From: Planctomycetaceae bacterium
Lineage (GTDB): Bacteria; Planctomycetota; Planctomycetia; Pirellulales; Pirellulaceae
Assembly (NCBI GenBank): GCA_002726245.1
Contig: PBSM01000096.1
Location: 1 to 64,000 of the forward strand
Direction: 5' to 3'
Length of the DNA: 64,000 nt
The notes under the pieces are model-generated. The model was not told the DNA's origin and ran no database searches. It was given only the letters and a program-made list of their open reading frames with translations. This document shows, one piece after another, positions 25,690 to 49,892 of this stretch. Positions within the stretch are counted from its first letter, which is position 1. Every line of letters starts with the position of its first letter. Made by a program: the position numbers and the translations under genes.

Positions 25690-25736
25690 CAAAGGAGCTT
25701 CGTAGCCAGTTCTGGCACCCGATCCGAAAGACCCTC

Positions 25737-28700: not shown

Positions 28701-30110
28701 CTTGCCGCGGCGAATCAACTGATCGAGTTTCGTGGCACCGATGGCAAGGCGGTCGTGACGTTGCTGGATGTGATTACGCCTCGGACAACGCCGGCGTTGT
28801 CCGAAGGTCTGTTCGCAGCGATTGGGAAAAGCGAATCGACCGAAGCAGGCATCGCCCTGGTGCAGCGGCTATCGTCGCTAACTCCGAAGGCTCGAGCATC
28901 GAGCTTGCGAGTGCTGTTGTCCCGGAAGGAATGGACGGCAGCGCTCGTTGACGCTCTCGCAGCCGGCAGGATCCCTCTCGGTGATCTCGCCCTGGAACAA
29001 AAGCAAGCGTTGACGGCCCATCCGAACCGCCAGATTGCTGCCAAAGCAAAGGCGATGCTTAGTCGCGGCGGCGGGTTGCCGAATGCTGATCGGCAGAAAG
29101 TGATTGATGAGATGCTGCCGCTAACGAAACTCACCGGCAACGTCGCGGCTGGCAAAGCCGTCTTCAAGAAGACGTGCGAGAAGTGCCACACGCACAGCGG
29201 TGAAGGCACGAAGATCGGCCCTGATTTGACGGGCATGGCGGTGCATCCCAAGCACGAGTTGCTAATTCATATCCTCGATCCGAGTCGATCGGTCGAAGGC
29301 AACTATCGCATCTACACGGTGGTGACCGAGAGCGGCAAGGTGCTAAGCGGATTGTTGGCCGCCGAATCGCGAACGGCTCTGGAGTTGATCGACGTAGAAG
29401 GCAAGAAGCACATCATCGTTCGAGACGAGATTGACGAGTTGGTCTCATCGAAGAAGTCGCTCATGCCGGACGGTGTCGAGAAGCAGCACACGCCACAGGA
29501 TCTGACCGACCTGCTCGAATTTCTGACGCAGCGCGAAAAGTTTATCCCGATTCCACTCGACAAATACGCGACAATCGCGAGCACGCAGGGGATGTTCTTT
29601 ACAAAGGAAGGCCCTGTCGAACGGCTCATCTTTCCGGATTGGTCGCCAAAGACATTTGAAGGCGTCCCGTTCTATCTGGTCGATCCGAAAGATGATCGCG
29701 CGGCAAACGTAATCATGCTGCATGGCCCTCGCGGCAACTTCCCACCTCGGATGCCCAACTCGGTCACACTCCCTTGCAACACTCCAGCCAAGGCAATCCA
29801 CTTCCTGAGCGGAGTCAGCGGTTGGGGCTTCCCGGCCATTCAAGAGAAATCCGTGTCGATGATCGTGCGATTGAAGTATGCGGACGGTGAAGCCGAAGAC
29901 CATCCGCTGCGAAATGCGGTTCACTTTGCGGACTACATCCGCCGCGTTGATGTTCCCGAATCGAAGCTGGCTTTCATGTTGCGAAGCCAACAAATTCGAT
30001 ATCTCGCGATCTATCCGAAGCGATCTCAGGCGATTGGCAGCATTGAGCTTGTGAAAGGACCGGATCAGTCGGCTCCGATCGTGATGGCCGTGACGATCGA
30101 GGGACATTAG
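25737..30110 (+). CDS. ThuA / PVC-type dehydrogenase / HEAT / c-type haem protein
   Basis: A 1457-residue exported protein. A signal peptide (MKLRLLSSMLAVLATHSLAAGA) precedes a ThuA-like domain (about 25-235: FLGDRGHHQPAARAEQL, FIPLHCASFCFRNS, YTAWGHDARTW). A seven-bladed propeller of the PVC membrane-bound dehydrogenase type (about 270-680; FEVKLFASEPDLRKP, DTDGDGRADKFTVF) is followed by HEAT-like helices (about 690-1120) and a haem-binding domain with CEKCH at 1147-1151. The last 150 residues form a beta-rich domain. Such proteins are typical of planctomycetes and Verrucomicrobia and are thought to oxidise sugars in the periplasm, passing electrons to the haem. Pairing with the sulfatase suggests polysaccharide use. 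Confidence 0.9.
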   Translation: MKLRLLSSMLAVLATHSLAAGADDSIELLFLGDRGHHQPAARAEQLIPVLAKRGINITYTESVNDLNSETLGKYDGLLVYANIDEISPSQEQALLQYVEAGNGFIPLHCASFCFRNSEKYVALVGAQFQRHGGESFRTRIVGRSHPIMQGFDGFESWDETYVHTKHNETHRTVLSYRVDSQGREPWTWVRTHGKGRVFYTAWGHDARTWGEPGFQNLIERGIRWAIGADPGDVPSFKDPHAFPIPAMTPKRMDVQPFEYTEAKVPFYPPSATWGKLAEPLTKMQKPLPAEESLKHMVVPVGFEVKLFASEPDLRKPICMTWDERGRLWCGETIDYPNELKPEGEGRDSIKICQDTDGDGRADKFTVFADKLSIPTTITFHRGGVIVQDGTKTWYMKDNDGDDVADEKRVLFDGWNMRDTHGGVSNFQYGLDNWIWAMQGYNNSSPTVDGEADQSFRMGFFRFKPDGSELEFIRSTNNNTWGLGISEEGIVFGSTANRNPSVYMPIPNRYYEKVRGWSPSQLGTIADTHLFEPITENVRQVDHHNGYTAGAGHALYTARTYPEEYWNRVAFVCGPTGHLVGSFVITRDGASFKSTSPFNLLASDDEWSAPVMAEVGPDGNVWVLDWYNCIVQHNPTPAGYKTGQGNAYKSELRDKRHARIYRIVYRGSASEKNAAPRLRDVAGEELVAALKHPNMFWRRHAQRLLVERGKRDVVPDLIELIDDRGFDQIGLNPRSIHALWTLKGLGALHGDDAEANKAVIRALQHPSPGVRQVAVAVSPRTESMLKALLARRVAVHADPQVRLATFLALSEFWQTNDLGLLIDHAIARRQNHTDSILLDALTVAAAAHAPSYLAAVLGEGAWSERPVAHGLPQVRELTRRVAEHFARGAGQEQIKELLALRLDSRLKTELDDVSAGLAAGWPQEEVVVLDRKTEAGLVAWVKQATPAAQANLVSLGSRWGSKKLEAYVLEIAAAFTKQVQDESLSEAERLAAANQLIEFRGTDGKAVVTLLDVITPRTTPALSEGLFAAIGKSESTEAGIALVQRLSSLTPKARASSLRVLLSRKEWTAALVDALAAGRIPLGDLALEQKQALTAHPNRQIAAKAKAMLSRGGGLPNADRQKVIDEMLPLTKLTGNVAAGKAVFKKTCEKCHTHSGEGTKIGPDLTGMAVHPKHELLIHILDPSRSVEGNYRIYTVVTESGKVLSGLLAAESRTALELIDVEGKKHIIVRDEIDELVSSKKSLMPDGVEKQHTPQDLTDLLEFLTQREKFIPIPLDKYATIASTQGMFFTKEGPVERLIFPDWSPKTFEGVPFYLVDPKDDRAANVIMLHGPRGNFPPRMPNSVTLPCNTPAKAIHFLSGVSGWGFPAIQEKSVSMIVRLKYADGEAEDHPLRNAVHFADYIRRVDVPESKLAFMLRSQQIRYLAIYPKRSQAIGSIELVKGPDQSAPIVMAVTIEGH

Positions 30111-31905: not shown

Positions 31906-34062
31906 ATGATGGCACTCGACCCCTATCAACTCTGTCCGTGTGGCAGTGGTAAGAAGATTAAATTCTGTTGCTCCAAAGACATCGTCCCCGAACTGGACAA
32001 GGTGATCCGGGCCGTCCAAGGAGAACAACGTGTTTCGGCGCTCAGCAGCGTCGCTAAACTTATCGAGGAGAAAGGTCCGCGACTCGCGTTGCTCGCGCTA
32101 AGAGCAGACGTCGAGCTTGCTCTCGGCCAATTAGAACAAGCCGATAAGACCATTGATGAGTTCCTGGCTGCATCGCCTGACAATCCTGTCGCCCTCGCTT
32201 TGTCGGCGATCCATGCCGGTGGCAAGAACGATCTCGAAAGCGCCATCGAAGACCTCCAGCAGTCGCTAGAGCATCTCGGCGGCGTCATGCCTCCGTCAGT
32301 GTACAGCGCCATTGGCGTCGTAGGCCAAACGCTACTCGCTCACGGCGATGTGTTGGCGGCTCGCGGGCATTTGTTGATGCAAGTTGGCTTGGCGGGCGAG
32401 CGTGATGAGAATCCGATCCGCCTCTTGATGCGGATCAACATGATGCCGGAGATTCCGCTACTGCTAAAGCAAGACTACCACTATGCGGAACGTCCCGAAG
32501 GCGCCGAGTGGGCAGAAGCATTTGATATCGCGATGCAACAAGCGCGAAAGGGTGCTTGGGTTGCTGCCTGTGAGAAGCTGGATGACTTGGAAGAACAATT
32601 CCCGGACCAGGGAGCTATCCTCAAGAACATCGCGATCCTGAGCGGCTGGGTCGGACAACGCGACGAAGCATCGATCGCGTGGCGCAAGTATTCGCGCCTC
32701 GAAGGCATTCCGCTGGACGACGCGGTCGAAGCCGAGGCGCTCGCACAAATGCTCGACCCGAACGCCGAGCGGGACGAGCTCGATTCCGTTGCCGTCATCT
32801 ATACCGTGACCGACGTCGAGAAGCTGATGGAACTGCTGCTATCGAATTCACGCGTCGGAAGGATGCCGATCGATCCGGCCGAAATGGCTGACGACGACGG
32901 GCCGCCACCCAAAGCTGCCTTCTGGCTACTTGATAAAGCGGTCCCGGAAAGCGGAGTCGATCTGACGCGCGAGCAGGTGCCGAATGTGCTCGGTGAGATG
33001 TATATCTACGGCAAGGAGACCGATCGCCCGGGTCGGATCGAGTACAGTCTCGTCCGTGACGAAGACTACGATTCACGCAAGCAGGCACTTGCCGAGTTTG
33101 CCGGTGAGTTCATCGAAGGCGAACCGACGGAAGAGGTTCTTGGACCCGTTCCGAAAGTGTCGGCGGGCCTTACCTGGCGCTGGCGGCTTCCCGACGATAC
33201 GCCAGCCGAGAAGCGGACGGAGCTTGTCAGCGAGCAGCGGCGCGAATCGATGCTGCAGCGCTGGCCCGCGATGGAGCTGAAGACTCTCAATGGCAAGACA
33301 CCCCGCGAACTCGCCGCCGACCCGGCCAACCAAGTACGCTCGCTCGCGGCAATCTTGCTGCTCGAATTGTCGAATGAGCAGAACAGTGCCGACTTCGACT
33401 TCAACGAGCTGCGTCGGGAGCTCGAGCTTCCGACGTGTGATCCGATCGATCCCGCGCACGTTGACGCGATGACATTGTCACTGGTGCAGATCCCGTTCGT
33501 TGAGGTCGAGAAGCTGAGCGACGAAGGTCTGCTGACGCTCTATCGGCGAGTTGTCTTGAAATACGCGGTCACATCGATCCGGATTATTGCTGAGGAAGTC
33601 TTGCGGCGCGACAGCTTGAATGACACGGTTGACAAGAATGAAGCCTACGACTTGCTAATCCGCACGGCGACCGATTCAGAAGATGCTCTGCGTCACGTGG
33701 AAGACGCGAAGCAGGCCACTAGTGAACGTGCCGAGTCGTCAGCACGCTGGTTGCTCGCTGAACTCTCGGTGCGACTCTCTCGCTACGAAGCTGAGCAAGC
33801 ACAAGCGATCATCCAAACGTTACAGCTTCATCATCGCGACGAGCCCGGAGTCGCTCAAGGCCTGTACGAGATCCTCGCGAGCTTCGGTTTGATAACCCCC
33901 GATGGTACTCCTCCGGCAATGCCCGCTGCCGCTGCTCAAGCAGCCGTTGCGGCACAACCCGCTGCGGCAGATGGCGGTTCCGCACTTTGGACGCCAGACA
34001 GCCCCAGTGAGTCGGCTCCGACTGAGCAGAAGTCGAAGCTGTGGGTGCCGGGGATGGACTGA
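31906..34062 (+). CDS. SEC-C motif protein with TPR-like helices
   Basis: A protein of about 718 residues (ATG at 31906, or the next codon at 31909, preceded by AAAGGAAG). The N-terminus carries a SEC-C zinc motif (YQLCPCGSGKKIKFCC, about residues 7-22), like the zinc-binding tail of SecA and many nucleic-acid or ribosome-associated proteins. Residues 40-280 look like TPR repeats (ALAALRADVELALGQLEQA-like helices), followed by a mixed domain and an Ala/Pro-rich tail. There is no signal peptide. The start of ribD follows after 43 bases. The function is unknown; no catalytic motif was seen. Confidence 0.75.
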   Translation: MMALDPYQLCPCGSGKKIKFCCSKDIVPELDKVIRAVQGEQRVSALSSVAKLIEEKGPRLALLALRADVELALGQLEQADKTIDEFLAASPDNPVALALSAIHAGGKNDLESAIEDLQQSLEHLGGVMPPSVYSAIGVVGQTLLAHGDVLAARGHLLMQVGLAGERDENPIRLLMRINMMPEIPLLLKQDYHYAERPEGAEWAEAFDIAMQQARKGAWVAACEKLDDLEEQFPDQGAILKNIAILSGWVGQRDEASIAWRKYSRLEGIPLDDAVEAEALAQMLDPNAERDELDSVAVIYTVTDVEKLMELLLSNSRVGRMPIDPAEMADDDGPPPKAAFWLLDKAVPESGVDLTREQVPNVLGEMYIYGKETDRPGRIEYSLVRDEDYDSRKQALAEFAGEFIEGEPTEEVLGPVPKVSAGLTWRWRLPDDTPAEKRTELVSEQRRESMLQRWPAMELKTLNGKTPRELAADPANQVRSLAAILLLELSNEQNSADFDFNELRRELELPTCDPIDPAHVDAMTLSLVQIPFVEVEKLSDEGLLTLYRRVVLKYAVTSIRIIAEEVLRRDSLNDTVDKNEAYDLLIRTATDSEDALRHVEDAKQATSERAESSARWLLAELSVRLSRYEAEQAQAIIQTLQLHHRDEPGVAQGLYEILASFGLITPDGTPPAMPAAAAQAAVAAQPAAADGGSALWTPDSPSESAPTEQKSKLWVPGMD

Positions 34063-34105
34063 TTGGCCGTTTGGCCTCGTCGCAACCAAGAGTAGCCAGC
34101 ATGCG

Positions 34106-35242
34106 ATGAACCGACAAACGTTTGACGCTGCTCGCATGGCTCGTGCCTTGGAATTAGCTCGTCGCGGGGAGGGCTATGTCGAGCCGAATCCGATGGTTGG
34201 GTGCGTGATCGTGCGACGTGATGAAGTCGTCGGTGAAGGCTATCATCAGCGCTTTGGCGGCCTTCACGCAGAGCGAGAAGCCTTACAGTCGGCCGGCGAT
34301 GCGGCGCGAGGCGCTACGATGTATGTGACGCTTGAGCCTTGTTGCCATCACGGCAAGACTCCTCCTTGTACGGAAGCGATCGTGGCTGCGGGAATTGCCC
34401 GCGTCGTCGTCGCTCGACGCGATCCGTTCCCGAACGTGGATGGCGGAGGCATCCGCGCGCTAAGCGAAGCCGGCATCGAAGTGGAGGTTGGCACCTGCGA
34501 AGGCGAAGCGAGCGCGCTCGACGCCCCCTACCTTAGGCTTGTCGAAACAGGTCGGCCTTGGGTCATCGCCAAATGGGCAATGACACTCGACGGCAAGATC
34601 GCGACTCACGCAGGCGACAGTCAATGGATTTCGAATGAGAGTTCGAGAGCGATTGTCCACCAACTTCGTGGCCGCGTCGATGCGATTCTGGTGGGCAGCA
34701 GCACAGCGCGAGCCGACGATCCTTTGCTGACCGCTCGACCGGCCGGACCTCGAACCGCGACGCGAATTGTTCTCGACTCGCACGCTTCGCTCTCGCTCGA
34801 TTCACAGCTCGTAAAGACAACGGCCGAGACACCGGTTCTGGTTGTCACGGGTGGCGCAGCGACTGCCGATAGGACGCAAGCTTTGACAGACGCGGGCTGC
34901 GAAGTTCTCAAGATCGAGGCAAAGTCGCGTGAGGCTCAACTCCAAGCATTATTGACGGAACTTGGACATCGTCGCATGACCAACATCTTGGTCGAAGGTG
35001 GCGGGACGCTGTTGGGAAGCCTTCACGATGCGAAGCTGATCGACGAAGTGCATATCTTCGTCGCTCCGAAACTTGTCGGCGGAGCTCATGCGCCCGCGCC
35101 GATTGCTGGAACCGGATTCGCAACGATGAAAGAGGCTGTTCGGATGCGAGACGCAACCGTTGAGCGTCTCGAAGACGACATCTACGTTGTCGCGAGACTT
35201 GAAGGGGAGGATACACCGCTAATGAGCGCTGATCGACGCTAA
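34106..35242 (+). CDS. ribD: Riboflavin biosynthesis deaminase/reductase
   Basis: A 378-residue bifunctional enzyme that deaminates the pyrimidine intermediate and then reduces its ribosyl side chain in riboflavin synthesis. The deaminase domain (1-145) has the zinc and catalytic motifs HAE (54-56) and PCCHHGKTPPC (78-88). The reductase domain (150-370) has WVIAKWAMTLDGKIA, DAILVGSSTARADDP and VEGGGTLLGSL, as in RibG-type enzymes. The start at 34106 fits the family opening; the frame is open further upstream but overlaps the previous gene. The other rib genes are not in the window. Confidence 0.94.
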   Translation: MNRQTFDAARMARALELARRGEGYVEPNPMVGCVIVRRDEVVGEGYHQRFGGLHAEREALQSAGDAARGATMYVTLEPCCHHGKTPPCTEAIVAAGIARVVVARRDPFPNVDGGGIRALSEAGIEVEVGTCEGEASALDAPYLRLVETGRPWVIAKWAMTLDGKIATHAGDSQWISNESSRAIVHQLRGRVDAILVGSSTARADDPLLTARPAGPRTATRIVLDSHASLSLDSQLVKTTAETPVLVVTGGAATADRTQALTDAGCEVLKIEAKSREAQLQALLTELGHRRMTNILVEGGGTLLGSLHDAKLIDEVHIFVAPKLVGGAHAPAPIAGTGFATMKEAVRMRDATVERLEDDIYVVARLEGEDTPLMSADRR

Positions 35243-35294: not shown

Positions 35295-38165
35295 CTATCG
35301 GCGATCCTCGCGCCGCTGGAATTGGCTCAGGTTCTGCAGATCGAGCGAACGGAAGCGGTCTAGCTCGAAGTGTTTGCTGTCAGGCCAGAAGAGGATTTTG
35401 CCGGCGTTCAAAGTGCCAGGTTCGCTGCCGGGCGTTTGTTGGAACTGAAGAACGGCGTCGTTGCGGCCGTCGCCTTCTAGGATGAGTTGGTCTTTCGCTT
35501 TGGCGTACGAAACTCGCTGGCCGGTCGCGGTGAAAGTTTGGCCGCGGACGAAGGCGTTGCCGGTTGCTTCCAATTCGATTGCGTCAAAGCGATCGCGTTT
35601 CTGGCCCATGTCGGCGATGGAAAGTCGTTCGGAATTGATCACAACGTCGCGCTGGCCAAGCTGCGACGTACGCGTCGCTTGGATGGTCTGGTCCCAAGAA
35701 GAAACCGGACCGTACAACGAGCGGACTCGACCCAAGAACTCAACTTGCCGGCGATTCAAATCGCCAACCAACTCGCGCTCGAAATCAACTCGTAGATAAT
35801 GCATGCCTTTGGGAGTGGTGGCGAACTGACCTTCCTTGAACAAGTCGCTCCCGTTGTGCACGCTTGTCACCCAACCCGGCCCGTCGCCGTGTAGTTTTCC
35901 CGTGGCTTGGCTAAAGCTGAGGTTGTGGACATGCATCTGCTCGGTGCTCTTTCGGGCACCTTGCAGGTCGAAGACTTCACTGCGAATCACGCTGAGCCCG
36001 TTAAAGCGCAGGTCTCGTAATCCTATCTCGCCCCGCTCGTCAAGCTTCTTGAAGTCGATGAATCGGGTTAGTTCGGCTGTCAGCGAATCGCCTCGCGCGT
36101 TGAAGTGAAGCTGCTCACCGCCGCGAAGCAACTGAACGCCGCGAGCAACCGCGTCGCCGTCAAAGGTCGCGCTCCGTCCGTCGAATCGCATTTGCCGCTG
36201 CCACGCGAGATGCGACGGGTGCTGTGGTGCGTTCTTCCGAGGCAGCGTCATCTCGCCCGGACCTTGCATCTCGACGACATTCGATCCGTAGAACAACTGG
36301 ATCGTCTGTCCTACGATCAACGCACCCTGAGCACCGACGCGCGCGGGCTCGCCAACAATCGTTGCCACAGGATTGTCAGTGTTTCCACGTTCGACCTGAA
36401 ACGAGTTGCAGTCCAGCGAGATACTCTGCGAATCAGGAGCGTCGATACTCTCGCAGTGAACTCGACCAGCCGCCGCCAGCCGAACGACTTGCGGCTGATC
36501 GCCCAGTTGCAGTTCGGCATTTAGCTTCTCAGCCGTCACGTGAAGCTTCCGCATCTGGTCCGGAGGTTGGTTACCCGTCGCCGATAGCAGCGGCGGTTGG
36601 TTACCCGCCGAGCTCGCGGCATCCGGCGAATCGGGACTCATGAACCAGATGTTCGCCTCGTCCAGCGCGCCTGACATGCGCGGCGAATCAAAACGGACAT
36701 GGCCGGTCGCCTTCAAACGATCGGGTTGGATCGCGAAGCGTTTTGGATTGTCCGGTCGAGGCGTCTCGTCGAGGAAGACGTGCAGCTCGTCAGCCGAGAA
36801 CTCGCCTGAGCCTTCAGCCTGAACGTGAGCCTTTCCGACGAAGCGAAGCCACTTGCTGCCTTCGAAGTCCTCTAGAAGAACGTCGTTCTGCCAGGAGACT
36901 TCAAAAGGCCGATTCTCATCGCCAAATCGACCGGTGACGCGCCCCGGTCCCGCGGCCCACATACGACCTAAGCGACCGTCCGGGCCAAGTTCATACTCGA
37001 TCTCGCTTGAAGCAACCTGGTATTTCTCGGTTCTTAGCTCGACGCCGTTCCGGTCGCGAATCCAAACACGATTCGTTTCCAAATCCATTTGGAGTTCCTC
37101 GCCGCGTGCTAAACCTCCCATCGAGTCCGCGCGGAGTGTTACCGGCAGACCGAACGCCACAATCTTGGTGGGTTTCGCGCCGGCCGAGGCGAGTTCCGAG
37201 TCGCCGTCCGCGTTGTTGTCATTGCTGAAGTGGATATCTAAATGCTGGCAATTGAGCTGGTCACTGGGGCCATCCGAATTGTGGCGAAGGACATCGACGT
37301 GATCGTCCAAGGAGAGCAGATACTCGTCGAAATCGAATTCCAACGCACCGCGGCACTTGAAATCTACCAGCGTCGTCTTCCGCAAATCCGCCGGTTTCTT
37401 TCGGGGACTGCCGCCGATCGCCAGTTTCCCGGCCGGCACCTGCAGATTGATCTTATCGACACGCACGAGTTGGAACGACTTGATGCGTCCCACGCTGGAC
37501 TTCGACAAAGCTTTCTCGTTGGTCTTCGTCGGCGGATGCATCACGATGGCCAGATCACCACCCGTACCCGAGTTGGGTCCGTAACGAAAGGCAACGTCGT
37601 GAGGCGTCCAGATCTTTCGTTCCTCGATGCGAATGCCGCGAGTTACGATTTCGAGGCCATCGTCTTGCCCTGAAGTCGGCGGGCTGTAGATGACGACTTC
37701 GCCCGTGAGTTCTCCGCCAACCAAGCGTCCGAACTTGCCGCGCGGGATATTCAACTCGCCTTCGAAGAAGAGGACCGCGCCCTCGGGAGCACGCAGCACG
37801 ATCGGACGTGGATCGCCGGTCTCTTGGCCCGCGTCGAAGATCATCGAACATCGAGTCAGCTTCATTCGGCTAATGGGCTTAATACCAGGCAACGGCTTCT
37901 TGCTTGGTAAACGCTCGTAGTCATCGAAGATCAGCTTTCCGCGGTCTGTTTCCAAAACCTTGGGGCCGTCTAACTCCCAGGAATCTGCCGGAAATAGCGA
38001 TACGAATCCACGCTCGCGTGGGGCGTGTTGCTGAGCTGATTTGGTGATCGAGAGTGACAACTCGATCGTTGGCTCGAGGAGTGGGACCGCCAACGCCGTA
38101 TACGCGAAGTGTGCCCCCAAGATGGCGAGCAGGCACAGGAACGTTCTTTTCAGACGTTGCTTCAC
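35295..38165 (-). CDS. Large LptC/LptA-like (OstA-fold) envelope protein
   Basis: A 956-residue protein with one N-terminal membrane anchor (about residues 8-28: TFLCLLAILGAHFAYTALAV), then an LptC-like start and long beta-rich repeats of LptA/OstA type (for example LRFVGKAHVQAEGSGEFSADEL near 425). These recur through the protein with many strand-turn units, so it could form an extended beta-jellyroll bridge for lipid transport across the periplasm. E. coli LptC and LptA together have about 375 residues; this is far longer. It is the third gene after kpsF/kdsD and kdsC on the same strand, the order found before lptC-lptA in proteobacteria. The role in LPS transport is inferred from context and fold. 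Confidence 0.7.
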   Translation of the reverse strand: MKQRLKRTFLCLLAILGAHFAYTALAVPLLEPTIELSLSITKSAQQHAPRERGFVSLFPADSWELDGPKVLETDRGKLIFDDYERLPSKKPLPGIKPISRMKLTRCSMIFDAGQETGDPRPIVLRAPEGAVLFFEGELNIPRGKFGRLVGGELTGEVVIYSPPTSGQDDGLEIVTRGIRIEERKIWTPHDVAFRYGPNSGTGGDLAIVMHPPTKTNEKALSKSSVGRIKSFQLVRVDKINLQVPAGKLAIGGSPRKKPADLRKTTLVDFKCRGALEFDFDEYLLSLDDHVDVLRHNSDGPSDQLNCQHLDIHFSNDNNADGDSELASAGAKPTKIVAFGLPVTLRADSMGGLARGEELQMDLETNRVWIRDRNGVELRTEKYQVASSEIEYELGPDGRLGRMWAAGPGRVTGRFGDENRPFEVSWQNDVLLEDFEGSKWLRFVGKAHVQAEGSGEFSADELHVFLDETPRPDNPKRFAIQPDRLKATGHVRFDSPRMSGALDEANIWFMSPDSPDAASSAGNQPPLLSATGNQPPDQMRKLHVTAEKLNAELQLGDQPQVVRLAAAGRVHCESIDAPDSQSISLDCNSFQVERGNTDNPVATIVGEPARVGAQGALIVGQTIQLFYGSNVVEMQGPGEMTLPRKNAPQHPSHLAWQRQMRFDGRSATFDGDAVARGVQLLRGGEQLHFNARGDSLTAELTRFIDFKKLDERGEIGLRDLRFNGLSVIRSEVFDLQGARKSTEQMHVHNLSFSQATGKLHGDGPGWVTSVHNGSDLFKEGQFATTPKGMHYLRVDFERELVGDLNRRQVEFLGRVRSLYGPVSSWDQTIQATRTSQLGQRDVVINSERLSIADMGQKRDRFDAIELEATGNAFVRGQTFTATGQRVSYAKAKDQLILEGDGRNDAVLQFQQTPGSEPGTLNAGKILFWPDSKHFELDRFRSLDLQNLSQFQRREDRR

Positions 38166-38213
38166 GGTTGTCTGGTTCTCTCCGGAGAAGGCCGAGACTG
38201 GCAGGGAACCTTG

Positions 38214-38735
38214 CTAGCCCGTGTACTTCCGGACCAGATCGTCCCACATCCCCTTTGCTTTCAGTATCCATTCGATTGCTTCACGGACAGCGCCTTGGCC
38301 GCCCACAAGCTCCGTCACGTAATCGGCTCCCGCTCGCACCTCCTCGCAAGCGTCGGCCACTGCGATCCCCAATCCCACTGCACGCATGACGGGAAGATCC
38401 GGCAAGTCGTCTCCGATGTAGCAAACCTGATCGGCTTCAAGCTCCAGATCCGTCATCAAGTCCTGCGCGACTGGTACTTTCTCTTCAAAGCCCTGCCGCA
38501 CGATATCAACGCCCAACTCCGACGCACGAAGCTTCACGATGTGCGACGTACGCGCCGTCAAGATGCCGAACTTGAATCCGCCGCGCTGCCACTGCTTGAT
38601 GCCCTGACCATCACGGCAGTGAAACCGCTTTTGCTCGATTCCATGATTGTCGAAGATGATGCCGCCGTCCGTAAACACACCGTCCACGTCCGACAGAATC
38701 AACTCCACTCTCTTACATCGGTCTTCGATCTTCAT
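38214..38735 (-). CDS. kdsC: 3-deoxy-D-manno-octulosonate 8-phosphate phosphatase
   Basis: A 173-residue HAD-superfamily phosphatase that removes phosphate from Kdo 8-phosphate. The DVDGVFTDG motif (residues 16-24) holds the nucleophile Asp16 and acid/base Asp18; ILTARTS (near 58) and the IGDDLPDLPVM metal-binding loop (near 107) complete the active site. The lack of a large cap domain and the length fit the KdsC/YrbI type. The next gene upstream in transcription, kpsF/kdsD, ends 8 bases before its start. Confidence 0.92.
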   Translation of the reverse strand: MKIEDRCKRVELILSDVDGVFTDGGIIFDNHGIEQKRFHCRDGQGIKQWQRGGFKFGILTARTSHIVKLRASELGVDIVRQGFEEKVPVAQDLMTDLELEADQVCYIGDDLPDLPVMRAVGLGIAVADACEEVRAGADYVTELVGGQGAVREAIEWILKAKGMWDDLVRKYTG

Positions 38736-38743
38736 ATACGTTG

Positions 38744-39844
38744 CTAGCTCGGCAAACGGTTCGGTAGAGGCAGTGTTTTTGGAAATCCGCCGTTGGCAGA
38801 GTTTGACGGCTCGGCCGGTCGGACGGTTGCCTTCCCGGATGATTCGCGTGCCAACACGTCGGTGATATCGATTAAGCCGATTGGCTTACCTTGGTCGTTC
38901 ACCACCGGCAGCTCGCTGATCTTTCGCTCGCTGAGCAGTTCAATCGCGCGCGGCATGCGAGTGCCTTCGGCCACCGTCGTCGGTGCACGTGTCATGAGGT
39001 CGCGAACCGGCGCGTCGAGCGCGGCGTCTTGTTTGCTTTCGAGCAGCCTCGCCAGATCGCTGTCGGTAAAGATGCCGCTCAACATGCCGTCTGAATCGAT
39101 CAACATGATCGCTCCCGTTCGACGGCCCGGGCGGCTCGCGCCGGCAAACACTTCGCGGATGGACTGCGTCTCGGCCGAGACGCGACATTCGCTTAAAGGT
39201 CTCATCACTTCTTCGACCTTCGCAAGCTTGCGGCCGAGGCTGCCTCCGGGATGGAAGCGAGCGAATTCCTCGGGTGCGAAGCCACGCGTGCGGCTAACGA
39301 CGAGAGCCAGCGCATCCCCCATCGCCATCATCGCGGTTGTACTCGTGCTCGGTGCCAAGCCGAGAGAACAAGCTTCGCGGATAGACCCCAGATCAAGAAC
39401 GACTTGGGCTGCGGTGGCTAGTGCGCTTTCAGCGTTGCCGGTAATTGCGACGATCGGTGCACCGAAGGAGTTGATCGACGGGAGCAGTCGCGTGACCTCT
39501 TCGGTTTCACCGCTGAAGGAAAGGGCGAGCACGACATCGTTGCCCCGGACCCGTCCCAAGTCGCCATGGATCGCTTCGCTCGGGTGGAGAAAGTGTGCAT
39601 TGGTGCCTGTTGAGGCGAGGGTGGCCGTGATCTTCTGGCCGACCTGCCCAGCTTTACCCATGCCCGTAACGATGACGCTCCCGCCGCAGGCCAGCAGATG
39701 CTCGACCGCGTCGCAGAACTCGTCGTGCAGGCCCGAAGCCAGCCCGACAAGAGCTTCCCCCTCTTGGCGGAGGATCTCCCGGCCGAAACGCAATTGTTCG
39801 AATCGGCTCAGCGGGCGCTGGCCACTAGCGGCTTCCGTGCTCAT
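38744..39844 (-). CDS. kdsD: Arabinose-5-phosphate isomerase (KpsF/GutQ/KdsD family)
   Basis: A 366-residue sugar isomerase that makes arabinose 5-phosphate, the precursor of Kdo. An N-terminal SIS domain (about 40-190) has VIVTGMGKAGQVGQKITATL and LALSFSGETEEVTRLLP; the conserved HPGGSLGRKL motif is near 205. Two CBS domains follow (about 220-340: EVMRPLSECRV, then VRDLMTRAPTTV). The extension after residue 340 is Pro/Ser-rich and unusual. It is the first gene of the Kdo/LPS operon and starts about 130 bases from a tRNA gene on the same strand. Confidence 0.9.
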   Translation of the reverse strand: MSTEAASGQRPLSRFEQLRFGREILRQEGEALVGLASGLHDEFCDAVEHLLACGGSVIVTGMGKAGQVGQKITATLASTGTNAHFLHPSEAIHGDLGRVRGNDVVLALSFSGETEEVTRLLPSINSFGAPIVAITGNAESALATAAQVVLDLGSIREACSLGLAPSTSTTAMMAMGDALALVVSRTRGFAPEEFARFHPGGSLGRKLAKVEEVMRPLSECRVSAETQSIREVFAGASRPGRRTGAIMLIDSDGMLSGIFTDSDLARLLESKQDAALDAPVRDLMTRAPTTVAEGTRMPRAIELLSERKISELPVVNDQGKPIGLIDITDVLARESSGKATVRPAEPSNSANGGFPKTLPLPNRLPS

Positions 39845-39970
39845 TGACGACGTCTTCCATGACGGGTCGGAGAAACAAGCGGGATTCTACCCGCAACGCG
39901 GGGGAACGCGAACACCGATCGGGCGATCCCGCGCCAAAAGAAGCCTTGCCGAGCCGACAAGGCGTCAGAG

Positions 39971-40043
39971 TGACCCCTACGGGACTCGAACCCGTGTTGC
40001 CGGCGTGAAAGGCCGGAGTCCTAGACCGCTAGACGAAGGGGCC
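39971..40043 (-). tRNA. tRNA-Glu (anticodon TTC)
   Basis: The reverse strand folds as a cloverleaf of 73 bases. The acceptor stem GGCCCCT pairs with AGGGGTC (one G-T pair). The anticodon arm CCGGC-CTTTCAC-GCCGG carries TTC. The T arm has GGGTTCGAGTCCC. The CCA end is not encoded. Confidence 0.95.
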
Positions 40044-40206: not shown

Positions 40207-40425
40207 CTACTCTGCCGCGTCCTCTTCATGGGACGCCTGTTCATTTTCCTGGGTCGCCTGCTCATTCCGCTTGATGGCATCGTAAACTTCGCGGCGGTGG
40301 ACCGGTATTTCCTTAGGAGCTTCCACGCCCAGACGCACCTTGTCGCCACGAATCTCGACGACGACGATCGTAATGTCATTGTTGATGACAATACTCTCGT
40401 TCTTCTTGCGGGATAAAACTAACAT
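40207..40425 (-). CDS. csrA: Carbon storage regulator CsrA
   Basis: A 72-residue mRNA-binding regulator. It starts MLVLSRKKNESIVINNDI, the family signature, and continues with VRLGVEAPKEIPVHRREV, which holds the RNA-binding residues of CsrA/RsmA. The tail is long, acidic and Gln/Glu-rich beyond the common 61-65 residues. CsrA binds GGA motifs in leaders and changes translation or stability of target mRNAs. It is divergent from the complex I genes. Confidence 0.95.
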   Translation of the reverse strand: MLVLSRKKNESIVINNDITIVVVEIRGDKVRLGVEAPKEIPVHRREVYDAIKRNEQATQENEQASHEEDAAE

Positions 40426-40859
40426 GGTCCATGTCCTTGTAACACGTTCGCGGCGTCGTCAAAGTCCTTCTTACCGTGGTTTCCGCTCTATCAGTTGCTC
40501 TCAAACCGTGACCAGTAAAACGCTTGCGCGCACATCATGGCTTCCACCCACTCTACGTGCTGGCTTAGCGTAGTCAAGGAAAGCCCGAGCGGGTGGCGGG
40601 ATTTTCGACGGATTTCCCGCTAGTGTGCAGCTACGACCCCTATTGCTTTCGGCTCTTCTCTGGACTGCACAGCTTCACATCAGCTGGCCGATTCGCGTTA
40701 AGCTTCTTATATGAATACTGTTACGATCCCAGTCATGGCTTGTGGAGCCGCCCATCTGGCAATCGAGGCAGCAGATTTTCATCCGCTTGCGGAGTCATTA
40801 GTGCTGTCTATAATTCACCGCTGGCTTGTGAACAGCATCTCTACTTTTGGCGCTGCGCG
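40426..40859. other. Divergent region between csrA and nuoI
   Basis: The region contains a sigma-70-like promoter at 40787-40814 facing nuoI, and must hold the csrA promoter. The open frame upstream of nuoI (from 40593) lacks protein-like content, so I treat it as non-coding. Confidence 0.5.
40787..40814 (+). promoter_or_regulatory. Sigma-70-like promoter for the nuo operon
   Basis: TTGCGG at 40787-40792 and a perfect TATAAT at 40809-40814 are 16 bases apart. The -10 box ends 46 bases before the nuoI ATG, leaving a short leader. Confidence 0.5.
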
Positions 40860-41387
40860 ATGTTGGATTGGCTTAGGAATATTAAGGTGGCCGTCTGGAC
40901 CGTTGGTCGCGGCATGCTCGTGACGCTGCGGTATTGGCTGATCACCTATCAGCAAGACCGGGGCACGTTCACGGAGAAATTCGAGTATCCGGAGAAACCA
41001 GTGCCGGTTGCCGCACGCTACCGCGGCTTTCACCGCTTTGACTTGACGACCTGCATCGCGTGCGATCAGTGTGCCAAGGCGTGCCCGGTGGACTGTATTT
41101 ACATCGGGAAGGAGCGGGTTGAGGGCGCGAAGGGTTTCAAGGTTACCGGTTTCGCCATCGACTACTCGAAATGTATGTTTTGCGCCTTGTGTGTCGAGCC
41201 TTGTCCGGTCGATTGTATCTTTATGGGAGCGACGCACGACCTAAGCTGCTATAGCCGCGACGGATGCATTGTGGACTTCTCTCGGTTGCCCACGGATGTG
41301 GGCTGGGGCCGTTCGACGCTCAATCCAACCGCTGTGGCGGAGTCAAAAGTCCTAACAGAACCAGTGCACGGCGGCCCGAACCAGTAG
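40860..41387 (+). CDS. nuoI: NADH-quinone oxidoreductase subunit I
   Basis: A 175-residue ferredoxin-like subunit of complex I that carries two [4Fe-4S] clusters (N6a, N6b). The ligands are C65xxC68xxC71xxxCP and C105xxC108xxC111xxxCP, all present. The N-terminal part ([24 protein letters not shown]) forms the membrane-facing helix. It is the first gene of the cluster, placed ahead of nuoA, which is unusual; in E. coli it lies between nuoH and nuoJ. The start at 40860 is fixed by homology, while the frame is open further upstream. Confidence 0.94.
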
Positions 41388-41428
41388 TACAATATAGTTA
41401 GCTAGTTCTACCGCTCAGCGAGTAAATC

Positions 41429-41896
41429 GTGGCACCTGCAGACTACAAGCCAGACAAGATCTTCACCGTCGAAGAGGCGAACGCGCGGCTTCCGTTGGTG
41501 CGTGCGATCGTAGCTGACATAATGAAGCTCTCAAGCGACCTCTTTGACCGTCGCGAGCGGCTCAACCAGCTTCAGAGCCGCCGGCCCGAGGGTACGGTTA
41601 ACGTCTATCAAGAAGAGCTTGCTCAGATCGAGGAAGAACTTGAACGCGACGTTGAGCGGCTGAACGCGTACGTCGAAGAGTTGCTTGAACTTGGGGTCGA
41701 GCCCAAGGGTGTTCGCGATGGCTTAGTCGATTTCCCGGCGATTCTGGACGACAAGCTAGTCTATCTTTGCTGGAAGTTCGATGAACCGGAAGTTCTGCAC
41801 TGGCACGATCTCGATGCGGGATTCGAGGGCCGGCAGTCGCTCACGGCCGGGAGTGTTGCCGAGGGTGCCGATTCAGAAGATGCCTTCGACGTCTGA
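41429..41896 (+). CDS. DUF2203 family protein
   Basis: A 155-residue protein of the DUF2203 family: FTVEEANARLPLVRAIVADI at the start, a long acidic helix (about 45-90), and GLVDFPAILDDKLVYLCWKFDEPEVLHWHDLDAGFEGRQ in pieces towards the end. The initiation codon is GTG at 41429. The biochemical function is unknown. It sits inside the complex I cluster, between nuoI and nuoA, in the same orientation, so co-transcription is likely, but a role in complex I is not established. Confidence 0.8.
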   Translation: MAPADYKPDKIFTVEEANARLPLVRAIVADIMKLSSDLFDRRERLNQLQSRRPEGTVNVYQEELAQIEEELERDVERLNAYVEELLELGVEPKGVRDGLVDFPAILDDKLVYLCWKFDEPEVLHWHDLDAGFEGRQSLTAGSVAEGADSEDAFDV

Positions 41897-42015
41897 TCGG
41901 CTCTACGTTCGAGGCTACTTCGCACTACGGTCACTTGCAGTTTCGCGGCACGCGCCTACAATCCTAGACTTGGTTTCTGTTGATTCAGCACGTCTAGGTT
42001 GAAACGCGGCAAGCG

Positions 42016-42651
42016 ATGTCAGCTTTTGGTTCTTCCATTGGAATCGTCGCCTATCTGGCACTCTTCGCTGGCGTGGGGGTCATCTTCCTCTTCGTCAATC
42101 TCCTGGTCGGTCGCTTCGTACGCCCGGCGGATCCACACGAAGAGAAACTGGAGATCTATGAATGTGGCGAGCCGACGATCGGTTCGAGCTTCGTGCAGTT
42201 CGATCTTCGGTTCTATGTCGTCGCTTTGTTGTTCATCATCTTCGATGTCGAAGTTGCGTTCTTCTTTCCGTGGGCGACGGTCTTCGGCAAGGCAACGCAT
42301 ATGGCAGATCCCGGCTTCCGCGTGGCGACTGCATCCGTGTCAGAGGGCGGTGTTGAACTGACGGAGCATGGGAGGCTGCTCTACCAGGAGATGGGCGTGC
42401 GCAATCCAACTCCGGTGAAGAATAAGTCGGCCTCCGCTGCTAATCGAATTGCTCACGAGGGCGCGAAGAAGCTTGCGTTGGTAACGCTCGTTGACATCGT
42501 CGTTTTCTTCGCCGTTCTGCTGGTTGGATTCGCCTATGTTTGGAAGCGTGGCGACTTAGACTGGGTGCGCGCTGTCAGCGAGGAACGTGCGCGCCGGCTT
42601 CCGGAATCTCCGCCGGAGAGCGTTGCTGAGGAACCCGCGCTGTCGGCGTAA
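42016..42651 (+). CDS. nuoA: NADH-quinone oxidoreductase subunit A (extended)
   Basis: A 211-residue membrane subunit. The family block KLEIYECGEPTIGSSFVQFD (residues about 43-62) and FYVVALLFIIFDVEVAFFFPW (about 66-86) are clear. Usual NuoA has about 120-150 residues; here about 60 extra polar residues lie between the second and third membrane segments, and there is a Pro/Glu-rich tail. The third segment (ALVTLVDIVVFFAVLLVGFAY) is present. nuoB, normally next, is absent; nuoC follows after 54 bases. Confidence 0.92.
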   Translation: MSAFGSSIGIVAYLALFAGVGVIFLFVNLLVGRFVRPADPHEEKLEIYECGEPTIGSSFVQFDLRFYVVALLFIIFDVEVAFFFPWATVFGKATHMADPGFRVATASVSEGGVELTEHGRLLYQEMGVRNPTPVKNKSASAANRIAHEGAKKLALVTLVDIVVFFAVLLVGFAYVWKRGDLDWVRAVSEERARRLPESPPESVAEEPALSA

Positions 42652-42705
42652 CAAATCATCTTTGGCAAAGCTGTTCTTTGCCGCGAATGCTATTGGTGGA
42701 GCGCA

Positions 42706-43236
42706 ATGAGCGGATCGAATCTAGTTGAGCGTCTATCGCAGCAGTTTGGCGAAAAGATCACCGGCTCGAATCTCGAAGCGATTGATCCTTGGATCGAAGT
42801 CACTCCCCAAGGGATCGTCGAAGTCACCCGGTATTTGCGCGATGATCCGGACTTACAGCTCAATCTGCTGAACTGCATTACCGGCGTGGACTATTTCATC
42901 GCTGACGAAAAGAAAGCCAAGAAGGCTGGTTGGGATCCGCATACAGAGGTTGTCTATCACCTGTCCAGCACCAAGAACAAGCACACGTTGGTTCTGAAGG
43001 TGATGCTGCCACGCTGGAAAGACGGTGTCGAGGGCGAGTTGCCTGAAGTGCCTTCCATCGCGGGTGTCTTTAGCACCGCTAATTGGCATGAACGCGAGGT
43101 ATTCGACCTCTCGGGTGTGATGTTTACAGGGCACCCGGACCTGCGTCGGATTCTGTGTCCGGAAGATTGGATCGGGCATCCACTGAGGAAAGACTACGAA
43201 ATGCCGCTTGAATACCACGGGATCCGTGGCCGCTGA
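42706..43236 (+). CDS. nuoC: NADH-quinone oxidoreductase subunit C
   Basis: A 176-residue subunit of the peripheral arm. It has the family's C-terminal motif around [42 protein letters not shown]. It is a separate gene from nuoD, unlike the NuoCD fusion of E. coli. GGAG lies 7 bases before the ATG. A 60-base spacer full of short repeats separates it from nuoD. Confidence 0.93.
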
Positions 43237-43238
43237 TG

Positions 43239-43290
43239 TCATTTGTCATTGGTCACTGGCCAAGGACTTAAGGACAAATGACCAAGGACT
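43239..43290 (+). promoter_or_regulatory. nuoC-nuoD spacer with inverted and direct repeats
   Basis: TCATTTGTC at 43239-43247 is complementary to GACAAATGA at 43273-43281. CCAAGGAC occurs twice (43260-43267 and 43282-43289), and TTGGTC pairs with GACCAA. No clear ribosome site lies next to nuoD. The design resembles the accB-accC spacer. Confidence 0.4.
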
Positions 43291-43296
43291 AAACGA

Positions 43297-44502
43297 ATGG
43301 CTACTCAACTCGACGATCCACGCATCATTGAATTCGACGTCCGCACCGACGAGATGCTCGTCAATATGGGCCCCCAGCATCCGAGCACGCATGGCGTGCT
43401 GCGGCTGGTATTGCGGACGGATGGCGAGATCGTGTCAGAAGTTGAACCGCACATTGGCTACCTGCATCGTTGTGCCGAGAAGATTGGTGAGAATCTGACG
43501 CCGCGGCAGTGGATTCCGTATACCGATCGCATGGACTACTTGGCCGGGATGAACATGAATCTCGGCTGGGCCCTCGCCGTCGAGAAGCTGGTCGATCACG
43601 AGCTATCCGAGAAGGCGAAGCATCTTCGGGTGATCCTTGCAGAGATGGGCCGAATCGCTAGTCATCTCGTAGGTATGGGCGCGTACGGGCTCGATCTGGG
43701 AACGTTCAGTCCGTTTCTATACGCCTTCCGCGAGCGAGAGAAGATCCTCGATCTGTTTGAGGAGGCGTGCGGTGCGCGACTGACGTACAGCTATCTGACT
43801 CCCGGAGGTGCCACCGCCGACCTACCGAATGGCTGGCTGCAAAAGTGCGAGGCCTTTCTCGAACAATTCGAGCCCATCATCCAAGAGTACCACGCTCTGC
43901 TGACGACTAACGCGATCTTCGTCAAGCGAACGGCCAGCATCGGTGTAATGTCGCCTGAGATGGCTGTCGATTTCGGCTGCACAGGCCCGGTTCTCCGCGG
44001 AAGCGGCGTTGATTATGACCTGCGGCGTGACGGCGAAGAGCGTTATACGGAAATGTACGATGGCTATGCCTTTGAGGTGATCGTACAGAAAGACGGCCAT
44101 TACCCGCGCGACCACGATTACCCTGCAGTGCCGAAAGAAGCGGTGCTCGGCGATTGCTGGCATCGGTTCTACGTCCGGATGCTCGAAGTTGTCCAAGCGA
44201 TTGACATCGTCCGGCAGGCAATCGACCGGTATAGCACGGCCAGCGGCGACTATGGGGTTCCGATCAAGCTGACACAGAAGCTGCCCAAAGGTGAAGCGTA
44301 CCTCGAAACGGAATCTCCCCGAGGCCAAATGGGTTTCTATCTCATTAGTCATGGCGACTCGATTCCATGGCGTGTGCGGGCTCGAAGTAGTTCATTCTGC
44401 AATCTGTCGGTGACGTCGGATTTGTGTCGCGGATGCCTGATTGCAGACGTCCCGGCGATCGTCGGTTCACTCGACCTTGTCATGGGCGAAATCGACCGAT
44501 AA
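43297..44502 (+). CDS. nuoD: NADH-quinone oxidoreductase subunit D
   Basis: A 401-residue subunit that forms the quinone-binding site with NuoB. The N-terminal NMGPQHPSTHGVLRLVLRTDGE motif (about residues 23-44) with its quinone-site His is intact, as is GYLHRCAEKIGE, and the C-terminal RARSSSFCNLSV..CRGCLIADVPAIVGSLDLVMGEIDR has the family end. The length is normal for a separate NuoD. A 233-base gap with one short hairpin (about 44701-44720) separates it from nuoH. Confidence 0.95.
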   Translation: MATQLDDPRIIEFDVRTDEMLVNMGPQHPSTHGVLRLVLRTDGEIVSEVEPHIGYLHRCAEKIGENLTPRQWIPYTDRMDYLAGMNMNLGWALAVEKLVDHELSEKAKHLRVILAEMGRIASHLVGMGAYGLDLGTFSPFLYAFREREKILDLFEEACGARLTYSYLTPGGATADLPNGWLQKCEAFLEQFEPIIQEYHALLTTNAIFVKRTASIGVMSPEMAVDFGCTGPVLRGSGVDYDLRRDGEERYTEMYDGYAFEVIVQKDGHYPRDHDYPAVPKEAVLGDCWHRFYVRMLEVVQAIDIVRQAIDRYSTASGDYGVPIKLTQKLPKGEAYLETESPRGQMGFYLISHGDSIPWRVRARSSSFCNLSVTSDLCRGCLIADVPAIVGSLDLVMGEIDR

Positions 44503-44735
44503 GCACGCACGCATCGCCCAGCCTGCCTAGCTCCCGAATCGCGGCTCTGTGGGCTTAACCAAGCGGTTCATCGCCCGCGATTTTGTCCATCCGGGGGCTT
44601 GTCGGTTCCCAATACTTTGTGCCATATTTCACGATCTTCGTAACGAATAATTGACGCTTTCCACCTGCTCGCGGGTGGTGGCAGAGAACATAAACTCCCG
44701 CGCCGGTTTGATGGCCGGCGTGAGGTGATCAGGGA

Positions 44736-46118
44736 TTGTCACCAACTGTGGCTGATTTCTTCCACAACTCTTTCCGCTTGCCAGAGTCGCTCGCTTACCT
44801 CACAGCGGCTGTGATTCACTGCGTGTTGATCATTCTCGTCGTGGCGGTCGGAGCGTTGCTCTTCATCTGGCTGGAGCGGAAGGTTTCCGGGCGCATTCAA
44901 GATCGCCTGGGACCGACTCGGGTGGGTGGTGCCTTCGGTTGGCTGCAAACGTTAGCCGACGGCATCAAGCTGATCGCGAAAGAAGACATCACACCCAAGG
45001 ACGCCGATTGGCTCCTCTTCAAGCTCGCCCCATACATTGGCTTCGCCGCTAGCTATTGCGCCTACATTGCTCTGCCGTTTGCGGACGGCTGGGCCGCGCG
45101 GCACATGAATACAGCCGTCTTCTTCATTCTGGCAGTGCTTGGCATTGAAGTCTTCAGTCCAATCTTGGCTGGTTACGCTTCGGGTTCGAAGTGGTCACTG
45201 TTCGGTGCGATTCGTGAAGCGGCTCAAGTCGTGAGCTACGAAGTTCCGCTTGGCATGTGCGTCGTCGTTCCGGTCTTCCTGTGTGGCACGATGAACCTGG
45301 TTACGATCGGCAACATGCAAGCGGGTTTGTTCACCAATTGGCTGGTGTTCAACGATCCGTTCACGTTTGTGATCGCGGTCGTGTACTTCACCTGCGCGAC
45401 TGCCAGTGTGAATCGCGCGCCGTTTGACTTGGCTGAAGCCGAGAGCGAACTCGTCGCTGGTTTCCACACGGAATACTCCGGTTTGCGATGGAGCTTCTTC
45501 TTCATGGCCGAGTACGGATCGATGTTCCTGGTCAGTGGTCTAGCCGCGATCTTGTTCTTTGGTGGTTGGCATGGGCCGATTCCGATTGGTGAGATACTTG
45601 GTGACTTTCTGGCCTACGTGGTCACACCGCTTGTTGGGATTGTTGCGTGGCTGTTGAGTTTCGTGTTTAAGAACGTGCACACCGCCGATCATGTGGCGGT
45701 TGCTGGCCACATTGCCAACTCGCTTGGTTGCCTAAACTTCCTTCTCAAGGGACTGATTGGCGTCACTGTGATGATGTGGGTGCGGTGGACGCTGCCCCGC
45801 TTGCGTATCGATCAAGTGATGACGACGTGCTTGAAGTACTGCGTTCCAATCGCGGCAATCTGCTTTCTCGGTGCGCTCGGCTGGCGCGTTGCTGATTGGA
45901 CGACAGGTGCTGACATTCCTCTTGTCGGGATTCACTATGGCAAGGGTGGTCGCGGCATGGTTCGCGAATCGTGGGTTGAGCAAACACAGTCGGCGAAAGT
46001 TGCCGAAAACGACGTTCCCGACGCGCCGATCACAGATCCCAACGCATCCGACGGCCCCACGGGTAGCGTCGAGCAATCACCAGACGAGCTGTTGACGATG
46101 AAAGGCGGTGACCAATGA
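44736..46118 (+). CDS. nuoH: NADH-quinone oxidoreductase subunit H
   Basis: A 460-residue membrane subunit at the junction of the arms, lining the quinone chamber. Eight or more membrane segments are present; family motifs include WLERKVSGRIQDRLGPTRVG (near residue 44) and NRAPFDLAEAESELVAGFHTEYSG (near 225), with its conserved acidic residues. The C-terminal 60 residues are a polar extension (AKVAENDVPDAPITDPNASDG). The start is TTG at 44736 or GTG at 44748. nuoJ overlaps its end by 4 bases. Confidence 0.93.
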   Translation: MSPTVADFFHNSFRLPESLAYLTAAVIHCVLIILVVAVGALLFIWLERKVSGRIQDRLGPTRVGGAFGWLQTLADGIKLIAKEDITPKDADWLLFKLAPYIGFAASYCAYIALPFADGWAARHMNTAVFFILAVLGIEVFSPILAGYASGSKWSLFGAIREAAQVVSYEVPLGMCVVVPVFLCGTMNLVTIGNMQAGLFTNWLVFNDPFTFVIAVVYFTCATASVNRAPFDLAEAESELVAGFHTEYSGLRWSFFFMAEYGSMFLVSGLAAILFFGGWHGPIPIGEILGDFLAYVVTPLVGIVAWLLSFVFKNVHTADHVAVAGHIANSLGCLNFLLKGLIGVTVMMWVRWTLPRLRIDQVMTTCLKYCVPIAAICFLGALGWRVADWTTGADIPLVGIHYGKGGRGMVRESWVEQTQSAKVAENDVPDAPITDPNASDGPTGSVEQSPDELLTMKGGDQ

Positions 46119-46738: not shown

Positions 46739-47067
46739 TCGCACTCGTTTCCGTCTCCGTTTCGCATTATCTGGTCGTTGGTGCCATCTTGTTCGTCACC
46801 GGCGTTATCTGCATGGCGACGAAGCGAAACTCGCTCGGTGTCTTGATGGGCGTTGAGCTAGTCCTCAACGGCGCGAATCTAAACTTCATTGCCTTCGGCA
46901 GCAGCTACCTTCGCGCCAATTCACTCGGGCTGGATGGCCAGCTCATGTCGTTGTTCGTCATCGTGTTGGCTGCGGCCGAGGCGGCGGTTGCGTTAGCGAT
47001 TGCATTGAACTTCTACAACAATCACTCCACGATCGACGTGGATCAAGCTAGCGATCTCAAAGGCTGA
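46735..47067 (+). CDS. nuoK: NADH-quinone oxidoreductase subunit K
   Basis: A 110-residue subunit with three membrane segments. The conserved GVELVLNGANLNFIAF (near residue 39) includes the essential membrane Glu, and AAAEAAVALAIALNFY follows, with the second Glu. Start and stop overlap neighbours (ATGA with nuoJ, TGATG with nuoL). Confidence 0.95.
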   Translation: MIALVSVSVSHYLVVGAILFVTGVICMATKRNSLGVLMGVELVLNGANLNFIAFGSSYLRANSLGLDGQLMSLFVIVLAAAEAAVALAIALNFYNNHSTIDVDQASDLKG

Positions 47068-49889: not shown

Positions 49890-49892
49890 TAG

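Follow-up and report, generated by a model that had tools for sequence, protein, structure and literature searches.

What stands behind kdsC in Planctomycetota, at the place where proteobacteria keep lptC and lptA? The question is raised by a 64,000-nucleotide stretch of a Planctomycetaceae bacterium genome (GenBank GCA_002726245.1, contig PBSM01000096.1, positions 1 to 64,000; the whole stretch is referred to as the window), which carries, in close succession, kdsD, kdsC and a gene for a 956-amino acid (aa) protein, here called the giant protein. E. coli K-12 has the order kdsD-kdsC-lptC-lptA-lptB, and the planctomycete trio runs in the same order. A first-pass annotation made from the sequence alone had proposed that the third gene encodes a membrane-anchored protein uniting LptC and LptA in a single periplasmic bridge for lipopolysaccharide (LPS). 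The analysis described here confirms the observation and supports, with caveats, the interpretation as an LptC/LptA-type bridge. Quite probably the giant protein is the periplasmic bridge of planctomycete LPS export, a single chain that unites LptC with at least two LptA units; as such it varies a known bridge, that of the Lpt system, and does not represent a new kind of system.

Gene order and predicted fold of the giant protein

The features of the locus and of the giant protein, with the source of each assignment, are:

38744–39844, minus strand: kdsD, arabinose-5-phosphate isomerase (SIS and CBS domains), 366 aa (open reading frame (ORF) list, NCBIfam TIGR00393)
38214–38735, minus strand: kdsC, 3-deoxy-D-manno-octulosonate (Kdo)-8-phosphate phosphatase, 173 aa (ORF list, NCBIfam TIGR01670)
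35295–38165, minus strand: giant protein, putative Lpt bridge (LptC/LptA-type), 956 aa, GTG start (ORF list, Pfam, structure comparison)
38076–38162, minus strand: predicted N-terminal transmembrane helix, residues 2–30 (AlphaFold2, hydropathy, alignment of 29 homologues)
37611–38000, minus strand: N-terminal beta region, residues 56–185, at the LptC position, conserved and without LptC sequence match (AlphaFold2, hhalign, alignment)
36939–37589, minus strand: first LptA-like module, residues 193–409 (hhalign repeats, VIA-align)
35910–36434, minus strand: middle LptA/LptC-like module, residues 578–752 (hhalign repeats, separate AlphaFold2 model, VIA-align)
35334–35951, minus strand: C-terminal LptA-like module, residues 739–944 (Pfam, VIA-align)
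35463–35654, minus strand: Pfam LptD_N/LptA (PF03968) match, residues 838–901 (Pfam scan)

The first two genes are identified by NCBIfam scores of 273 bits for KdsD/KpsF (TIGR00393, cut-off 203.7) and 149 bits for KdsC (TIGR01670, cut-off 107). Gaps are 8 bp between kdsD and kdsC and 48 bp between kdsC and the giant gene. Coordinates, minus strand and protein length in the first-pass annotation agree with the ORF list, and the likeness that it saw to the proteobacterial gene order holds on comparison with E. coli K-12 and with both NCBIfam calls. This order is not chance, because a kdsC homologue lies directly upstream of the giant gene in 20 of the 23 loci with at least 1.4 kb of upstream sequence (from 31 loci, eight of which had too little), and kdsD or kdsC adjoins it in 28 of 29 further loci (L076–L104), the last of which, L083, begins inside the gene. 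In the other main family of the class kdsD is itself the direct neighbour (20/20 loci, L085–L104); the giant gene is found behind kdsC or kdsD in both Pirellulales and Planctomycetaceae. No lptB-like gene was found behind the giant gene, where E. coli has one, in the loci examined (partly by eye). In one lineage (L105:3673–4740, L106:2889–5021, L108:8375–9937) a longer ORF (355–710 aa) ends in a kdsC-like domain, apparently fused to something else upstream, and the giant gene lies behind it.

Named relatives in the first set of loci are all Planctomycetota, many of them Pirellulales. A protein search recovered homologues in 114 of 117 genomes, mostly of the same family and order, and a profile search added one more (G011; 115/117); the two genomes without a match (G023 and G106) are drafts, 78% and 73% complete. 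In the phylum as a whole, 77 of 392 genomes matched the profile: 40, mostly strongly, in the same class (home genome included) and 37, weakly and partially, in other classes. The unmatched genomes listed (20; 295 more are unmatched) are all from outside the class.

In the AlphaFold2 model of the whole giant protein, one helix (residues 2–30) is followed by a long run of strands, all beta (28 sequences; predicted local distance difference test score (pLDDT) 80.3, predicted template modelling score (pTM) 0.60). Three sequences that were too short (L065, L067 and L068) and one split into two frames (L058) were left out of the homologue alignment, and L066 was also left out of the second model, giving 28 rows for the first and 27 for the second. 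With the whole model as Foldseek query, LptD chains account for 18 of the 20 matches at E ≤ 0.001, including the top ones. VIA-align places Lpt proteins at all of ranks 1–26 (Z 8.4–13.5), ahead of an unrelated row at Z 7.8. LptA (2r1a_G) aligns with residues 739–909 (Z 13.5, root-mean-square deviation 2.2, 127 residues), LptC of LptBFGC (6mit_C) with residues 716–918 (Z 12.0) and further LptA entries within residues 193–409 (Z 8.4–9.5). Residues 395–752 folded alone are better defined than the whole (pLDDT 88.5, pTM 0.84), and VIA-align ranks 1–20 for this model are again all Lpt (Z 8.9–12.2; next 5.6), among them LptC 6mjp_C (Z 12.2), LptD (Z 12.0) and LptA (Z 11.9, 123 residues). An unrelated fold is thus not what the comparisons return. 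Since the Lpt matches fall at separate places, Lpt modules can be assigned to about residues 193–409, 578–752 and 739–944. Comparison of the family profile with itself (hhalign) detects internal repeats between residues 330–500 and 570–740 (E 1.2e-9), 270–440 and 630–800 (E 5.8e-9), and 270–440 and 810–956 (E 2.4e-8). The continuous jellyroll expected by the first-pass annotation is borne out at the level of modules, which match LptA, LptC and LptD best; their relative placing, and hence their alignment into one unbroken groove, is only likely in the model, because the whole-chain pTM is modest.

Beta-groove proteins carry various lipids, and the giant protein might instead bridge phospholipids or hydrophobic planctomycete lipids in the manner of TamB/AsmA-like proteins. 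A TamAB entry does appear in the Foldseek list of the whole model (rank 42, E 0.014), and VIA-align has TamA rows at Z 6.0–7.1, not above background. In every structure comparison, however, Lpt proteins rank higher. The gene neighbourhood, moreover, consists of Kdo genes, joined in several lineages by LptD, and the home genome has LpxC and a Kdo transferase domain, which makes a bridge for other lipids highly improbable.

The anchor predicted by the first-pass annotation is recovered as the N-terminal helix. Hydropathy peaks at residue 9, with no further peak past residue 40, and the first 30 residues form the sole strongly hydrophobic stretch. This stretch closes with a motif, Y-x(5)-P-x(3)-P, of which Y22, P28 and P32 are invariant in all 29 aligned homologues. 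Because the motif is conserved at that point, the helix, judging from the alignment, more probably stays in place as an anchor than is cut off as a signal peptide. At the other end of the protein, PF03968 matches residues 838–901 marginally in a protein scan (20.8 bits, gathering cut-off 20.4); the same family is detected at E ≤ 0.01 in 18 of the 29 homologues, and LptC (PF06835) in one, weakly (E 0.006).

The slot behind kdsC across the phylum

The gene following kdsC was surveyed in 60 regions downstream of kdsD homologues, comprising G011 and 59 regions, mostly one per family, from a kdsD survey in which 140 of 148 genomes matched. kdsC follows kdsD in 34 of the 60; a gene for 559–1691 aa comes next in 31 of them. 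The three without a long gene have a stand-alone 174-aa LptC (L146), a methyltransferase (L175) and a metallopeptidase (L188) in its place. Neighbours in the other 26 regions are unrelated, short, truncated or not identified. Four loci with a long gene after kdsD and no recognised kdsC (L151, L168, L177 and L183) are included in the set of 38 slot genes used for Pfam counts, which at E ≤ 0.01 has LptD_N in 21 and LptC in 16.

Nineteen proteins, three of them products of second-next genes, were read singly by Pfam. LptC comes first and LptA later, both above curated cut-offs, in L152 (654 aa), L173 (641 aa), L179 (648 aa, three LptA stretches) and L163 (931 aa); on this domain content, slot proteins of this type are LptC-LptA fusions, and they occur in distant planctomycete families. 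LptC is above and LptA slightly under the cut-off in L164, L156 and L158, and the reverse applies to L182. Several long slot genes, e.g. L139, L147 and L155, have no Pfam Lpt match, and L142 has a weak LptC match at its far C-terminus, contrary to the expected order. The focal family aligns with six compact fusion proteins over residues 265–642 (hhalign, E 1.3e-11), outside its N-terminal 250 residues, which do not align.

An LptD homologue lies directly behind the giant gene in L130, L132, L139, L141, L144, L150, L151, L118 and L124, with no gene seen between the two where they adjoin, and 8 of 34 second-next genes have a Pfam LptD match. At the upper end of the length range, L147:1797–6611 and L181:1814–6889, from one planctomycete family, encode 1604 and 1691 aa behind kdsC; the former, scanned singly, has no Pfam match of any kind, and the two may be bridges of record length or may be unrelated to them.

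Partner genes in the home genome and neighbours in the window

The home genome (7.6 Mb, 89% complete) contains candidates for the partners that the first-pass annotation named for a check. LptB scores 317 bits (equivalog cut-off 240), two LptF/LptG permeases score 158.8 and 128.4 bits as proteins, and an open frame of 1093 aa is an LptD candidate. The last matches L144:1317–3947 of another planctomycete (4e-22), a gene above the Pfam LptD cut-off (29.6). A second OstA domain was not detected in the home genome, either by PF03968 or by a profile of the C-terminal module of the giant protein; the OstA-domain profile returned the giant protein and one weak 25-residue match (E 4.3).

Several observations weigh against a fused bridge. 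The LptB, LptF, LptG and LptD genes are all on contigs other than that of the giant gene, and the LptD candidate falls slightly under the Pfam cut-off (19.0 vs 22.4). The PF03968 match of the giant protein drops to 17.6 bits, under the cut-off, in a six-frame genome search, and the LptA equivalog TIGR03002 gives 19.3 bits (cut-off 71.7). A search of Protein Data Bank sequences with the family profile gave no match at E ≤ 10; the Lpt family was reached by structure comparison alone. The whole model combines its pTM with five low-confidence inner stretches of at least 10 residues. PF06835 has no match anywhere in the home genome at its 89% completeness, and focal residues 30–250 show no similarity to LptC when segments 30–130 and 60–250 are compared by hhalign with the LptC-bearing region of the compact fusion proteins (probabilities 0.3 or less). 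The focal N-terminus is therefore not called LptC by sequence, and an LptC part would be assigned by position and anchor. Finally, the N-terminal jellyroll expected in the LptD candidate of the same genome was missed by both PF03968 and the OstA-domain profile, a failed positive control. Because the same searches missed this domain, the absence of a separate LptA is weakly supported.

The proposal that one protein merges LptC and LptA accordingly stands as regards the Lpt modules and the fusions of other planctomycetes, and less firmly for the focal LptC part; the lack of a separate lptA or lptC agrees with the searches, within the limits of an incomplete genome and of profiles that overlook a divergent domain. 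Two other arrangements bear on these results. In the first, the giant protein would be no more than a lengthened bridge of LptA type that carries an anchor of its own, and the LptC task would fall to a separate, over-divergent LptC or to LptF/LptG alone. Such a division of labour would fit the undetectable LptC sequence in the focal N-terminus and the lineage that keeps a stand-alone LptC behind kdsC (L146), and E. coli LptF mutants are reported to bypass LptC, LptA then being able to contact LptF (PMC9972910). The N-terminal helix with its conserved motif, the occupation of the lptC gene position and the LptC domain at the N-terminus of relatives nonetheless make it distinctly unlikely. The E. 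coli contact between LptA and LptF as reported in that study also means that a far-drifted LptC-like N-terminus would be tolerable in principle in a fused bridge.

The second arrangement accepts the bridge and supposes that it is built from more than one piece: several giant chains would be stacked, or the giant protein would be extended by a small LptA that escaped detection. Head-to-tail joining is known from LptA and LptC of E. coli, and since divergent OstA domains are poorly detected, a small LptA could have been overlooked. On the other side are the lack of a second OstA-like gene among the home genome matches and the direct junction of giant gene and lptD in the lineages where they adjoin, and stacking is accordingly considered unlikely. 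The data are best explained by a bridge in which LptC and LptA are fused and whose length depends on the lineage.

Other features of the window near the locus are:

39970–40043, minus strand: tRNA-Glu (TTC), directly upstream of kdsD, the sole tRNA in the window
40207–40425, minus strand: small ORF of 72 aa, beginning MLVLSRKKNESIVIN, upstream of tRNA-Glu and kdsD; presumably similar to the RNA-binding regulator CsrA
40593–52223, plus strand: large complex I type cluster, opening with an ORF that looks ferredoxin-like by eye; Pfam identifies two long ORFs in it (940 and 776 aa) as proton-antiporter subunits
25686–30110, plus strand: 1474-aa protein with ThuA, DUF7133 and cytochrome c domains (Pfam)
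33902–35242, plus strand: ribD, convergent with the giant gene and 52 bp from it

The first start of the ribD ORF falls inside the preceding TPR/SEC-C gene, so the true start is probably near 34100.

Proposed bridge and comparison with known systems

In the mechanism favoured here, the N-terminal helix would fix the giant protein next to LptB2FG in the inner membrane, in the way that LptC is fixed, and the jellyroll (beta-taco) modules behind it would form a long hydrophobic slide. LptB2FG would lift Kdo-containing LPS, to which kdsD and kdsC of the same gene run relate, and hand it to the first module. From there the LPS would be pushed from one module to the next as far as the C-terminal LptA-like domain, which would dock on the N-terminal domain of LptD at the outer membrane. 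That LPS is the cargo, that the protein touches LptF/G and LptD, that flow runs in this direction through a continuous groove, and that a single protein does the work of both LptC and LptA are inferences. On the simplest reading, the lptC and lptA genes behind kdsC would have merged, and the product would then have been lengthened by duplication of repeats.

Two or more small LPS-carrying proteins thus appear to have been replaced in planctomycetes by one long membrane-anchored protein. A further proposal, offered tentatively, is that Planctomycetota exchanged the self-assembling LptC-LptA filament for a single covalent bridge, one molecule reaching from LptB2FG to LptD, whose gene-set length varies among lineages (559 to 1691 aa) and may match the unusual periplasm width of each, acting as a ruler. 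The giant protein would be a natural bridge whose length is fixed, so that its gene would show how many jellyroll modules lie between the membranes, a number that has to be guessed where the bridge is an oligomer. It would also offer a system in which to test the continuous-flow model of LPS transport. Interest is raised by the phylum-wide pattern of one slot and one chain of variable length, with LptC at the front where recognisable and LptD adjoining in several lineages.

The giant protein would also fill the LptA/LptC gap in the planctomycete Lpt machine and explain why parts seem to be missing from the phylum. In a 2022 survey of 85 genomes the Lpt system of planctomycetes is termed 'largely reduced', with only part of the machine found, and lpt genes are reported as clustered in Proteobacteria only; its models included E. 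coli sequences (PMC8871954). A 2012 genome study argued for an LPS outer membrane from LptD and BamA, which it identified in every planctomycete genome that it covered; the words LptA and LptC are absent from its main text (PMC3422733). Separate proteins are reported in other lineages, with two OstA-domain proteins of about 200 aa in diderm Firmicutes (PMC5007114) and distinct LptC and LptA in Borrelia (PMC10353723). No description of a fused planctomycete Lpt bridge was recognised from titles and abstracts of the open-access literature, a scope outside which lie subscription journals and preprints, where prior mention is possible.

With LptC (E. coli b3199, PF06835) the giant protein shares the gene slot after kdsC, a single N-terminal transmembrane helix and the jellyroll fold, seen in the middle module (with 6mjp_C) and in the C-terminal one (with 6mit_C). 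It differs in length (956 vs 191 aa), in lacking a PF06835 match and in having several modules where LptC has one. The fold of the C-terminal module and the Pfam match at its core are shared with LptA/LptH (PF03968, OstA). LptA is a short, soluble and separate periplasmic protein with a cleaved signal peptide that oligomerises, whereas the repeats of the giant protein are joined covalently and anchored. The N-terminal domain of LptD supplies the top Foldseek matches; LptD also carries a C-terminal outer-membrane barrel, while the giant protein ends in an LptA-like module and the home genome has a separate LptD candidate. TamB/AsmA-like bridges, too, cross the periplasm as a single long chain that is anchored and has a beta groove, and it is the preference of the structural matches for Lpt proteins, together with the LPS-related gene neighbourhood, that sets the giant protein apart from them.

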